Positions 1,370 to 22,696 of a stretch of DNA of 23,848 nucleotides are shown in pieces. Under the pieces are notes generated by a model. The model made no database searches. It was not told the origin of the DNA and saw only the letters and a list, made by a program, of their open reading frames with translations. A program made the position numbers and the translations under genes. Within the stretch, counting starts at the first letter, position 1; each line of letters begins with the position of its first letter. Source of the DNA: a virus; IMG/VR virus record IMGVR_UViG_3300034418_009954, positions 1 through 23,848 of that record; one strand, given 5' to 3'.

Positions 1370-1720
1370 TCAGCGAAGCGGATCTGCAAAGATGAAGCCA
1401 TTAACAAAAGGCACACGGTGAGCTTTATCACCTTCCTGGTTGATAACGGTGATGAACCATTCGCCCGCTTTCTGATAGATACCCTCGCCCTGAATACAAT
1501 GGCGAGTACAGATAGCGTTCAGGCGAGACTTTGTAGTCTTTGACTGATAGCCTCCGTCAAAGATCTTGACGAAGTTATCACCAACAATGGCAATCTCGTT
1601 GCCGTAAAGATAAACGTGAGAGTTGCCACTGTGGGGGTTATAAACAACCTCAGTGTTAGCTTTGCGCCAATCGCGATTGTCGAGAATGGCCTGATTCATT
1701 TCGAGTTCGATGTTTCGCAT
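1370..1720 (-). CDS. Small phage protein of unknown function (116 aa)
   Basis: I start this gene at the ATG in 1718-1720, giving MRNIELEMNQAILDNRDWRK and 116 residues. The open frame extends upstream to a GTG at 1801, but that stretch is built of inverted repeats and is better read as untranslated leader. The opening part, with an invariant-looking N-x-x-x-W and N-T-x-V-V pattern followed by a V-Y-L-Y-G-N-x-I-A segment, resembles a short protein widespread in podoviruses and cyanophages, recalled from memory without a name. The rest is beta-rich with two cysteines near the centre. It is the first gene of the leftward cluster. The function is unknown. Confidence 0.7.
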   Translation of the reverse strand: MRNIELEMNQAILDNRDWRKANTEVVYNPHSGNSHVYLYGNEIAIVGDNFVKIFDGGYQSKTTKSRLNAICTRHCIQGEGIYQKAGEWFITVINQEGDKAHRVPFVNGFIFADPLR

Positions 1721-1988
1721 GTTAGGAATGAACGAAAGTAATGTGATTTGGTGAGGGTAGAGGCCCTCAGTGTGCACTATAGCGCACAGGGAGAGCGTCA
1801 CACTCAGAGAGTGAAACTAAACTTTGCACCATGATCAAATGTGATCACGAATACAAACAAACCCACCCCTAAGTGAGACCACGTAGTTAATACATGGCCC
1901 CACTAAAGAGTGAATCTGGGAAATTGGCCCTAAAGTAAAGCCAATCATGGCGCACATAAAGTGCACAAACCGCAGGAAGTGTGCGGGC
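1721..1988. other. Gene-free, hairpin-rich intergenic stretch
   Basis: No credible gene. Successive perfect inverted repeats are visible: GAGGG/CCCTC (1753-1757 with 1764-1768); a near-perfect 18-bp palindrome TGTGC-ACTATAGC-GCACA (1771-1788); CACTC/GAGTG (1801-1813); TGATCA twice around AATG (1832-1847); CACT/AGTG (1901-1912); ATTGGC/GCCAAT (1923-1928 with 1940-1945); GCAC/GTGC (1952-1964); and CCGCA/TGCGG (1970-1974 with 1982-1986). The left part must hold the promoter and leader of the leftward cluster, but I see no convincing -35/-10 pair. The right part may be the 5' portion of the structured RNA that follows. Confidence 0.55.
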
Positions 1989-2904
1989 CACGGGTTAATC
2001 GAACCGTTTCAAGTTTGCATTATGGGGCGTCGCACAAACTTTTAAGTTTGCCGACCATGTGCCCTAGCGAGTTGGGGTGAGAAAGGCGAACCCGTGACAG
2101 GCGATGACCGTAGAAGATAACTTCTTGGGGCATTGTCCAGCGTACCTGTCGTAGGGACAGATACTCTGGACACAACATCCCTGCGGTTGGGAAAGTTAAA
2201 AGGTGCCCGAGCTTGGTAGGACGGGCTATTGCGTCAGGCCACACCAGATCTATAAAGGTTGCAACGATACATATAGCCGGGAATCTGATTCTCACTGGGC
2301 TATAGCGTTAGTTACAAGCTCGCAAGTCTAGGGACTTAACTATCGACAACCTGCCAAAGATAAATACTTTGAGCATGGGACCAAGGGCCTCTCGGGCAAG
2401 CTACTGGCTCCTAACCTTCCTGAGTGTGGCGCGCAGGCCAGCACCGGATCAGTGGGAGATTCTCAATAGGTGCATGGGGCTTAGGCCCGCGAGGGCTTGT
2501 GGGCACACCATGCCTCTGGCTACTAGCCTCTGAGGGTATCGGTCCCCGCCCGCCTAACTGCCAGCCACTACTACCAGGTGCGATCCCTTATGGGTCTGCT
2601 CTCACCCTGGTGGGCGTCAGTCTTGACGGACGGAAGTCCTATGTCGTCGAGCCTCTCGGCCCGTTGCTGGAATCCTACAGCACGGTGCGGAGCCTGTCGG
2701 AACGATGGGGTGACGGTTTGGGGATTGGCACAAGCGGGAGAGCGTAGTCTCGCAGGGCTTGACCGATCGACCGCCGGGATCGTACCGGGTGGCGACGCGT
2801 GGGCTGCAGGTTGTCCAGGTTCCGCCTCTCGGTTTCCCGATCGGCTTGAGCCCATCATCACCACGCCGGGCGCCATAGGTCAACCCCTTGCAACCGGATT
2901 GCAG
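1989..2904 (+). ncRNA. Large structured noncoding RNA candidate (GOLLD/ROOL-like class)
   Basis: No gene-like frame exists here, yet complementary segments are dense and nested. CACGGGTT 1989-1996 pairs AACCCGTG 2089-2096 around a CAAACT/AGTTTG hairpin. TGTCCAG 2134-2140 pairs CTGGACA 2166-2172 around CTGTC/GACAG. A 13-bp helix 2205-2217 pairs 2380-2397 with a five-base bulge and encloses GGTTG..CGATA 2257-2269 with TATCG..CAACC 2341-2351, TATAGCC/GGCTATA 2272-2304 and AAGTC/GACTT 2324-2337. Further stems: GCATGG/CCATGC 2472-2513 capped by a GCGA tetraloop, ACCAGG/CCTGGT 2573-2611, CGTCA/TGACG 2615-2628, a GGAA-capped stem 2628-2639, 2661-2685, and GGGC..CCGATCG 2755-2769 with 2838-2853. G-U pairs (2484-2497, 2737-2750) fit the plus strand. 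Giant phage RNAs such as GOLLD and ROOL lie near tRNAs, and a tRNA follows. Exact class and ends are uncertain. Confidence 0.6.
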
Positions 2905-2973
2905 ATTGGCACACTAGGTGAGCTCAGTGAGGGTAGGGAGGAACCGCACGCGTCATGCGCTCGCGCGAATGTA

Positions 2974-3103
2974 ACGCGCACGCACACACATGCGCAGGCA
3001 CACACACGCACGCGCACACGCACACACGCACGCGCGCATTACGCGCACACCCGCCCGCACACGCACACACGCACGCACACGCACGCACACACGCGCACGC
3101 GCG
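2974..3103. repeat. Alternating purine-pyrimidine CA/CG tract (about 130 bases)
   Basis: The tract is made almost entirely of CA and CG dinucleotides. Uninterrupted purine-pyrimidine alternation runs over 2974-2996, 2998-3039, 3040-3050 and 3056-3103, a pattern known to favour left-handed Z-DNA. It is bracketed by an 8-bp complementary pair, CTCGCGCG 2960-2967 with CGCGCGAG 3098-3105, so in RNA it would form a closed, largely unpaired C/A-rich loop. Open frames through it encode only Arg/Thr/His/Ala repeats and are not credible genes. Such a microsatellite is unusual in a phage. Confidence 0.85.
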
Positions 3104-3277
3104 AGGTTAGTTATACAAACCGTGTGCCGCAATGTAACAAATAGTGGGCGCAATCTGCCCGCAATCCGGCCTTTTTTTTAAATATAGAGCTCAGGTGACG
3201 ACGGGGGCGAGATACCTATGGTTTTCGGCGGGGTAAACTGACCCTAAAAGGTCCATTGCCAGTATAGTGACAGGCGC
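3104..3277. other. Gene-free spacer between CA/CG tract and tRNA
   Basis: No gene is seen. After the terminator-like element at 3144-3179 there are two small overlapping hairpins: GGGT/ACCC near 3231-3245 and GACC/GGTC near 3240-3253. A TATAGT hexamer at 3263-3268 could serve as a -10 box for the tRNA, but no good -35 box stands 16-18 bases upstream. The motif CGCAAT occurs three times between 3128 and 3166. Confidence 0.4.
3144..3179 (+). terminator. Possible intrinsic terminator before the tRNA
   Basis: GTGGGC 3144-3149 pairs GCCCGC 3157-3162 (six pairs, one G-U) with a seven-base loop, followed nine bases later by eight consecutive T residues at 3172-3179. The distance between stem and T-run is longer than usual. 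CCGGCC immediately before the T-run could pair with GCCG near 3127 instead, making a branched stem. It would terminate the structured RNA on the plus strand and leave the tRNA separate. Confidence 0.4.
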
Positions 3278-3350
3278 GGGGGTCTAGCTATCTGGTGAAA
3301 GCGGTCGACTCATAATCGATTTCAGGCGAGTTCGATCCTCGCGACCCCCA
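3278..3350 (+). tRNA. tRNA with CAT anticodon (elongator Met or lysidine-type Ile2)
   Basis: The 73-base cloverleaf is complete: acceptor GGGGGTC/GACCCCC with discriminator A3350, three-pair D stem GCT/AGC with GG in the loop, anticodon stem GTCGA/TCGAT (one G-U) with loop CTCATAA, a five-base variable loop, and T arm GCGAG-TTCGATC-CTCGC. The anticodon is CAT. The fully paired acceptor end and the lack of consecutive G-C pairs in the anticodon stem argue against an initiator tRNA. Whether it reads AUG or, after lysidine modification, AUA cannot be settled by eye. CCA is not encoded. Confidence 0.93.
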
Positions 3351-21172: not shown

Positions 21173-22696
21173 ATGCCGAGTAGAGAGACTTTTGCATACC
21201 GTCGTGCTCTAAAACTACGTGCTGCTAAAGCTGTAGAGTCTGAGAGCAGTTCTATTGATAATATCTTTTTACGTGCGTCAGATGACTTTCATACTTTTTG
21301 TACAATTATGGATAAAGCTCCTGCGGCGCATATGCTGGAGTGGCATAAGCATTTGATAACAGGCGAGAGTAATAGGTATCTTTTAGATATTGCAGGACCC
21401 AATCTTGATATTCTGGCTCCACGAGGTTCTGCAAAATCCACGGTGCTTAACATGTTCACCGCTTGGATTATTGGAAGGCACACGACTGCTGGTTTACCTC
21501 TGCAAATTATTTACTGTTCTTACAACATCGCGACTGCGATACCTAAGAGTCGAATCATCAAACAGATTATCGACTCCTCTACGTATAAAAAGATTTTTCC
21601 GAAAGTCCTGCTCCGTTCAGGTATGCAGTCGGATATCGGCTGGAGTATTGATTTCGACTATGCAGGCATCAGCCGTGTGGGTGATGAAGAATTCACATTG
21701 CGCGCCGCTGGTTTGCGTGGCTCAATCACGTCTAAGCGTGCGCACCTTGTTATCGTAGATGACCCTATCAAGTCCAGCACAGATATTAAGAATCCTACCA
21801 TTAGGGAGGAGATGAACAATAACTGGAGCTCAGTTATCGCTCCGATTATCTTCGAGGGCGGTCGCGCTATCTGCTTAGGAACTCGGTTCCATCCTCTCGA
21901 TATCCACAAGACGATGTTCGTCCCGGATAAAGGTTGGAAGCAAGTTCAGCAGGAAGCCCTTACGTACGATGACGGCGGTGATCCTGTTAGTTATTGGCCT
22001 GAGCAGTGGAGCGTCGACTACTTGTTGGGGCAAAAAGAACTAGACCCTGTTGCTTTTGCTTTCCAGTACCAGCAGCAACCAGTCATGACGTCGGACCTGG
22101 TCTTGTCGCCTGACTTGCTTATTAAAGGGGACGTCGTTACAGAATTTGACAGTCTGGCAGTTGGGATTGACCTGTCAGCCAGCAAAAACGAGACCTCTGA
22201 CTACACGGCGTTTGTACTAGGCGGAAGATTAAAGGATAAGTACTACATTATTGACGCACATCAGGTGCGCTCTATTGGCAACCTCGAAAAGATCGACCTT
22301 CTGTGCAAAATGCTCGTGGAGTGGGGAATTTTGCAGGAAGATACCGAGGGTAAGTACTTTCCCACGTATTCAACTTGTTCCCTTGTCGTTGAGTCTGTTG
22401 CGTACCAGGCTTCCTTGGCTGCTGATTTACGCCGAGTGATGCTTAACGAATGGGGCTTAGGTAATCTCCATATTCATGAAGTCAAAGGATTCCGAGGAGA
22501 CAAGATCGCTCGTTTCCGTGGAACACTGGGCCTTCTGGAGAATAAAAAAGTGACTTTTAACAGATATCGCAAATTCGATGCTCTCTTCGATCAGTTGATT
22601 AATATCGGTGCGACTTCTCATGACGACCTATTAGACGCTTACACTCACCTCGTGTGCTTTCTTCAGCGTCGCGGTAATTTCGAAATGGAGTACTGA
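21173..22696 (+). CDS. terL: Terminase large subunit (DNA-packaging ATPase/nuclease, 507 aa)
   Basis: Length and motifs fit a complete large terminase. L-A-P-R-G-S-A-K-S-T at 81-90 is the Walker A loop. H-L-V-I-V-D-D-P at 191-198 is Walker B (D196, D197). C-L-G-T-R-F-H at 234-240 is the coupling motif. The nuclease domain has G-I-D-L-S at 331-335 (D333), V-V-E-S at 405-408 (E407) and H-D-D-L-L-D-A at 483-489 (D484, D485, D488), giving the acidic metal-binding cluster of the RNase-H-like fold. It powers DNA translocation into the prohead through the portal and cuts the concatemer. The ATG at 21173 is the only good start. It heads a rightward operon; the stop overlaps the following glycosyltransferase (TGATG). 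Coupling of terL to a glycosyltransferase is unusual. Confidence 0.95.
   Translation: MPSRETFAYRRALKLRAAKAVESESSSIDNIFLRASDDFHTFCTIMDKAPAAHMLEWHKHLITGESNRYLLDIAGPNLDILAPRGSAKSTVLNMFTAWIIGRHTTAGLPLQIIYCSYNIATAIPKSRIIKQIIDSSTYKKIFPKVLLRSGMQSDIGWSIDFDYAGISRVGDEEFTLRAAGLRGSITSKRAHLVIVDDPIKSSTDIKNPTIREEMNNNWSSVIAPIIFEGGRAICLGTRFHPLDIHKTMFVPDKGWKQVQQEALTYDDGGDPVSYWPEQWSVDYLLGQKELDPVAFAFQYQQQPVMTSDLVLSPDLLIKGDVVTEFDSLAVGIDLSASKNETSDYTAFVLGGRLKDKYYIIDAHQVRSIGNLEKIDLLCKMLVEWGILQEDTEGKYFPTYSTCSLVVESVAYQASLAADLRRVMLNEWGLGNLHIHEVKGFRGDKIARFRGTLGLLENKKVTFNRYRKFDALFDQLINIGATSHDDLLDAYTHLVCFLQRRGNFEMEY

Follow-up and report, generated by a model that had tools for sequence, protein, structure and literature searches.

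The stretch of DNA analysed here (the window) is a 23,848-bp IMG/VR virus fragment. Its closest isolate in the collection is Synechococcus phage S-EIV1, with 54% identity between the two large terminases (21173-22696 in the window). Because of this S-EIV1-related terminase, and because the first leftward gene belongs to the Kyano_Gp96 family, the window was assigned to a cyanophage; judged from its sequence, this phage is a distant relative of S-EIV1. The Pfam match to Kyano_Gp96 runs from residue 28 of a long open reading frame (ORF), near an ATG at about 1720, and the leftward gene block begins near this position, about 30 nt past the terminal hairpin listed in Table 1. Between this gene and a rightward tRNA lies a gene-free region of about 1.5 kb (1745-3277), with a GC content of about 0.57-0.63 vs about 0.47 in its surroundings.

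The initial annotation had placed in this region, at 1989-2904, a giant structured noncoding RNA read from the plus strand and lying next to a tRNA, either a divergent GOLLD or ROOL RNA or a new class. The gene-free character of the stretch was borne out: over 1745-3277 no ORF is kept intact across homologues, the plus frames reaching stops and the minus frames being shifted or lost, and protein coding was ruled out on account of these breaks. The proposed extent was too small, as the element described below covers about 1745-3180. Its features and those of its neighbourhood are collected in Table 1.

Table 1. Position and strand of the features at the divergent junction of the window
Feature	Position	Strand	Remarks
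Kyano_Gp96-family gene, first leftward gene downstream of the RNA	1370-1722	-	Pfam match
Whole element, very probably a giant structured RNA	1745-3180	-	Homology and minus-specific covariation; putative 5' end ~3170, putative 3' end ~1750
3'-terminal hairpin, UGAGGG-N6-CCCUCA	1752-1769	-	In every covering member, with small variants
P_c, imperfect stem-loop with a fast-covarying apical stem	1760-1799	-	19 homologues
P_b hairpin with GATCA..TGATC	1823-1857	-	GATC/GATC pairs invariant in 19
27-bp hairpin, 3' domain	1858-1918	-	Minus fold; 2 compensatory, 3 wobble and 11 broken changes
11-bp hairpin, 3' domain	1922-1946	-	2 compensatory, 4 wobble and 7 broken changes
14-bp helix 1968-1982/2175-2188	1968-2188	-	Encloses H1; minus fold
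H1 hairpin, UGUCCAG..CUGGACA	2134-2172	-	Aligned in 14 homologues; common to other cyanophages
Rod-like nested domain	2190-2420	-	Minus fold; contains the main helix of the initial annotation
Rod domain, helices	2190-2202/2408-2420, 2204-2216/2381-2398, 2224-2229/2346-2351	-	
Rod domain, helices (continued)	2233-2251/2325-2340, 2255-2265/2311-2321, 2269-2278/2298-2308	-	
Hairpin ACCAGGUGCGA/UCACCCUGGU	2573-2611	-	4 compensatory changes
Long-range helix 2892-2902/3161-3171, 5' end, around the GT tract	2892-3171	-	Predicted on both strands; weakly supported (1 compensatory, 4 wobble and 8 broken changes)
Alternating purine-pyrimidine (CA/CG)n tract, GU-rich on minus	2955-3110		Variable linker; several members without it
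TATATTTAAAAAAAAG, putative promoter-like leftward start block	3171-3186	-	
Control block GACGACGGGGGCGAGA...GGGGTAAA...TATAG	3187-3270		Adjoins T8; kept in all members
tRNA-Met(CAT), neighbour outside the RNA	3278-3350	+	Group A only

Homologues and mosaic organisation

A terminase scan returned 399 relatives, 80 of which were kept, and the region was compared by blastn with 49 of their records, giving strong matches (80-88% identity, well above chance) at the same divergent junction. Further homologues were obtained by scanning for patterns taken from conserved pieces, which brought the collection to about 25 IMG/VR contigs, from which 20 representatives were used. No matches came from searching with the Gp96 protein or a 20-nt core pattern, and no prophage or host copy was found when genome contigs were scanned for the 3' block and H1.

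All members carry the T-run block at the right end. In 19 of the 20 the left end is formed by the GAGGG..CCCTC hairpin, which shows small variants; the distance from this hairpin to T8 is 866-1428 nt in these 19, the remaining one (L133) ending at a contig edge. Between the two ends the element is a mosaic, some pairs of members being alignable nearly throughout and others at the ends only, which gives a general layout with a 3' domain alignable in 19 of the 20 and a mosaic 5' body. Blocks of sequence reappear in unrelated surroundings: about 170 nt of L141 are found in L150 and L138 with 92-93% identity and different flanks, and the bases that close this module co-vary (CGGGAC/GTCCCG vs GTGGGAC/GTCCCAC). 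These comparisons show that related phages exchange whole, self-contained modules. The word ATTGTC(A/C/T)AGGT(T/G)C (window 2809-2823) is repeated at module boundaries in many members, and in L140 (10600-11400) an AT-rich body with many short palindromes like TAGGTATnnnnTACCTA replaces the GC-rich modules.

At the right end, the putative start motif TATNTNTAAAAAAAAG occurs once per genome in 5 genomes, always at this site and in this orientation. Every member also contains the elements seen in the window at 3155-3270, over about 100 bp after T8, namely a repeated CCCGCAAT, T8, ATATA, GACGACGGGGGCGAGA, GGGGTAAA and TATAG. The conserved block by T8 is possibly a divergent promoter or an origin, and it is also faintly conserved in S-EIV1. 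The divergent junction exists in this isolate too, where it has a T9 block; the intergenic region is short there and gives no match to a covariance model of the 3' end, and part of the wider lineage therefore lacks the RNA.

The tRNA-Met is indeed a neighbour in the window, as had been pointed out, but only 6 of the 20 members (group A only) have it; it is encoded on the other strand, about 100 nt past the putative 5' end of the RNA. This is therefore probably not the GOLLD-like linkage that it resembled.

Folding energy and covariation on the two strands

The stretch 1989-2904 folds modestly better than its dinucleotide-preserving shuffles, with z-scores of -2.7 on plus and -3.6 on minus, but the strongest signal lies outside it (best 200-nt window 1800-2000 on minus, z -8.4), and much of 2400-3100 folds no better than shuffled sequence. 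Relative to shuffles, minus windows outfold plus windows (mean difference -0.40, s.e. 0.10). Folding energy alone would not have been sufficient to settle the question.

For covariation, both strands of each homologue were folded (span of at most 300) and the high-probability pairs were mapped onto the aligned relatives. In the null, the same substitutions were redistributed among positions with the same base; it ignores phylogeny and the comparisons overlap, and a near-independent subset of comparisons served as a guard against overlap and kinship. The CA tract was masked because it artificially favours the minus strand, and an unmasked run went in the same direction. Pairs found only in the minus fold underwent 218 compensatory double changes vs 51 expected (54 vs 13.4 in the near-independent comparisons) and were broken at 0.79 of expectation. 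Those found only in the plus fold gave 13 compensatory changes vs 9.7 expected in the near-independent comparisons, with broken pairs at 1.07 of expectation; summed over all ordered comparisons they show some excess (89 vs 40), which is probably due to the non-independence of the comparisons and to overlapping alternative helices.

Pairs shared by both folds were broken at 0.59 of expectation. The view that G-U pairs favour the plus strand proved wrong, since these shared helices keep A.C, which corresponds to G.U on minus, at 0.74 of the expected rate, vs 0.48 for G.T. Counted by helix, compensated pairs number at least two and are not outnumbered by broken ones in 74 of the 711 minus helices vs 41 of the 690 plus helices; at least three supporting changes with at most one broken pair are found in 35 minus and 11 plus helices. 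Considering the minus covariation, the G-U exchanges and the P_c stem described below, the RNA is therefore read leftward, from about 3170 to about 1750. We consider it very likely that a structured minus-strand RNA is present in the region.

Structural domains

On the minus strand, the order from 5' to 3' is start block, GU-rich linker, modules (2190-2900), enclosed H1 and 3' domain. In the last of these, P_c is 99.1% paired (cells over 19 sequences), and its 44 double-change cells compare with 14.3 in shuffled controls and no more than 12 in slid ones. One of its pairs is U.G in all 19, corresponding to a C.A mismatch on plus; a second reads G-C in 11 sequences and G-U in the other 8, again a mismatch on plus. 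Since P_c and the terminal hairpin need the same GAGGG, only one of them can form at a time. A stem extended to 15 bp is predicted for P_b in the window, and a hairpin comparable to the 27-bp one is present in the MFE folds of most homologues. A covariance model of the 3' end gave one strong match per genome, at this locus. A terminator scan detected no recognisable intrinsic terminator at the 3' end of the RNA.

Weaker copies of P_c, all on minus, were observed between leftward genes of L140 (8957-9034, 9762-9840 and 10156-10209), L144 (1154-1244), L151 (9187-9277) and L159 (6280-6372). These copies suggest that the phages have a hairpin recurring between their genes, with a processing or regulatory role. 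As they lie in the same orientation between leftward genes, a leftward transcript is the natural home of P_c, and they fit such a transcript independently of folding.

The helix that encloses H1 is retained although its sequence is wholly replaced between subgroups, an unrelated GUUAGUUACAG/CUGUAACUAAC helix standing at this position in group B and in L136, L138 and L149. H1 itself (TGTCCAGCGTACCTG..CTGGACA) was observed with a near-identical stem in 49 IMG/VR stretches with unrelated settings, such as after thymidylate synthase or beside tail fibre genes (L142-L184), and in Synechococcus phage S-CBP4 it lies across the record junction, with a tract similar to (CA/CG)n beside it. H1 looks like a mobile or shared element.

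In the rod-like domain, compared over 3 homologues, no more than one pair is broken in most of the inner helices, vs 5 in the outermost. This domain includes the 13-bp two-part helix (2205-2217/2380-2397) on which the initial annotation had relied; its complementarity is real and it appears in the minus fold (p 0.5-0.7), but it is absent from the plus fold. The other helix singled out (2755-2769/2838-2853) is likewise complementary in sequence, but it is predicted on plus only and shows 17 distinct broken places vs 1 compensatory change. As for the two supposed GNRA tetraloops, relatives read GGTT or GGCT at 2632 (GGAA in the window) and L178 reads TCGC at 2489 (GCGA), so that neither backs a plus-strand GNRA motif. 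Many individual helices of the 5' body retain broken pairs, and the structural model is therefore incomplete there.

Known RNA families and possible function

Cmscan of the window and its relatives against Rfam, with gathering and E-value thresholds, returned only tRNA and low-complexity or chance-level matches, mostly in the CA tract. The region thus contains a conserved, covarying minus-strand element of 0.9-1.4 kb that is noncoding and outside known families. Of the two options first suggested, a new class of giant structured noncoding RNA is well supported by the covariation, the lack of a conserved ORF and the lack of an Rfam match. The other option, a divergent GOLLD or ROOL, is not supported: GOLLD (RF02032) has no match in any of 21 genomes at E <= 10 and none in cmscan, and neither ROOL nor OLE was matched in cmscan of the window or relatives.

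OLE is a large ornate bacterial RNA of about 600 nt, with many stacked helices, found in Bacillota; the present RNA resembles it as a large ornate RNA with stacked helices and differs in its length and in being from a phage. GOLLD RNAs have a conserved 3' region and a variable 5' region, exceed 800 nt, lie near tRNAs, form an RNA-only multimeric cage and have their expression raised in lysis. The element described here would also be a very large phage noncoding RNA longer than 800 nt (866-1428 nt), with one subgroup beside tRNA-Met, and it has the same conserved 3' and variable 5' layout, an analogy of layout and not of sequence. It differs from GOLLD in being longer (up to 1.4 kb), in having a tRNA on the other strand and in 6 of the 20 members only, in heading a leftward gene block and in having modules swapped between phages. 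GOLLD and ROOL are described as large phage RNAs that assemble into cages of RNA alone and whose function is unknown, and ROOL is highly structured and often near tRNAs (PMC12286853). The present RNA, also large and highly structured, is about twice as long as ROOL, in another genomic setting and without an Rfam match.

We propose, as a reasonably probable mechanism, that leftward transcription would start at the TATATxTA8 block (~3170-3186), a putative promoter, and that the first 0.9-1.4 kb of the transcript would fold into a multi-domain RNA in which the conserved 3' domain (P_b, 27-bp hairpin, P_c and terminal hairpin) bears a variable 5' body of exchangeable modules. P_c and the terminal hairpin could be the point of separation from the following leftward mRNA, by processing or termination, and the freed RNA may act in trans during infection, in a manner analogous to GOLLD and ROOL though it is neither. 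More tentatively, it might represent a new class of giant phage RNA, ornate, trans-acting and possibly multimeric, which would evolve by domain shuffling between a fixed 5' start block and 3' domain.

As the main alternative, the same minus-strand RNA could be a giant 5' leader that controls the leftward block in cis; P_c and the terminal hairpin would then serve as an antiterminator/terminator switch or as a processing switch. The leftward gene starting about 30 nt after the terminal hairpin, the conservation of two mutually exclusive hairpins and the position of P_c copies ahead of other leftward genes all speak for such a leader. However, attenuation needs far less than 0.9-1.4 kb of modular, exchangeable structure, the body is freely replaced while the 3' switch stays, and no clear U-tract follows the terminal hairpin; we regard this explanation as rather unlikely. 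An element acting at the DNA level (an origin of replication, or a packaging or recombination region with palindromes) would suit the position between two divergent gene blocks, the conserved T8/AT block, the repeated CCCGCAAT and the arrays of short palindromes in L140, but it should treat G.T and A.C alike and the support is strand-specific instead, which makes it improbable. The flanking block 3187-3270 may well be a DNA-level control site, which would leave the RNA part unexplained.

A giant RNA on the plus strand, beside the tRNA and ended by T8, is more improbable still: T8 does follow on plus, complementary segments are present and the plus fold reaches z -2.7, but plus-only pairs lack covariation in the near-independent comparisons, the wobble exchanges favour minus, the U.G pair invariant on minus would be C.A, and the terminator scan found no plus terminator at T8. 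The strand originally proposed is thus contradicted by covariation and wobble exchanges alike. Finally, the complementarity could be due to chance in an intergenic region that is rich in GC and recombines. This would agree with the modest plus z-scores and with 2400-3100 being no better than shuffles, but it is hardly credible given covariation far above the null in many genomes and the same ends in 19 of the 19 members that cover both.

To our knowledge, few RNAs this large are known besides ribosomal RNA and introns. A family in Synechococcus phages, one lineage of which is a distant relative of the cultivable S-EIV1, would be a further, independent example, and would offer, if its domains swap as cassettes, a natural experiment on which parts matter. 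Open-access literature searched for the H1 sequence and for large cyanophage noncoding RNAs held no earlier description.

The genome-junction noncoding regions of S-CBP1- and S-CBP4-like cyanopodoviruses have H1 in common with the present RNA, and the S-CBP1-like ones also covary. They differ in their locus (after thymidylate synthase), in having no overall sequence similarity and in a structured strand that is apparently plus relative to H1. The unrelated S-CBP1-like noncoding region, of about 0.9 kb and sampled around H1 in L147, L157, L171, L175, L176, L177 and L180, showed 34 compensatory changes vs 8.9 under the null in shared pairs.
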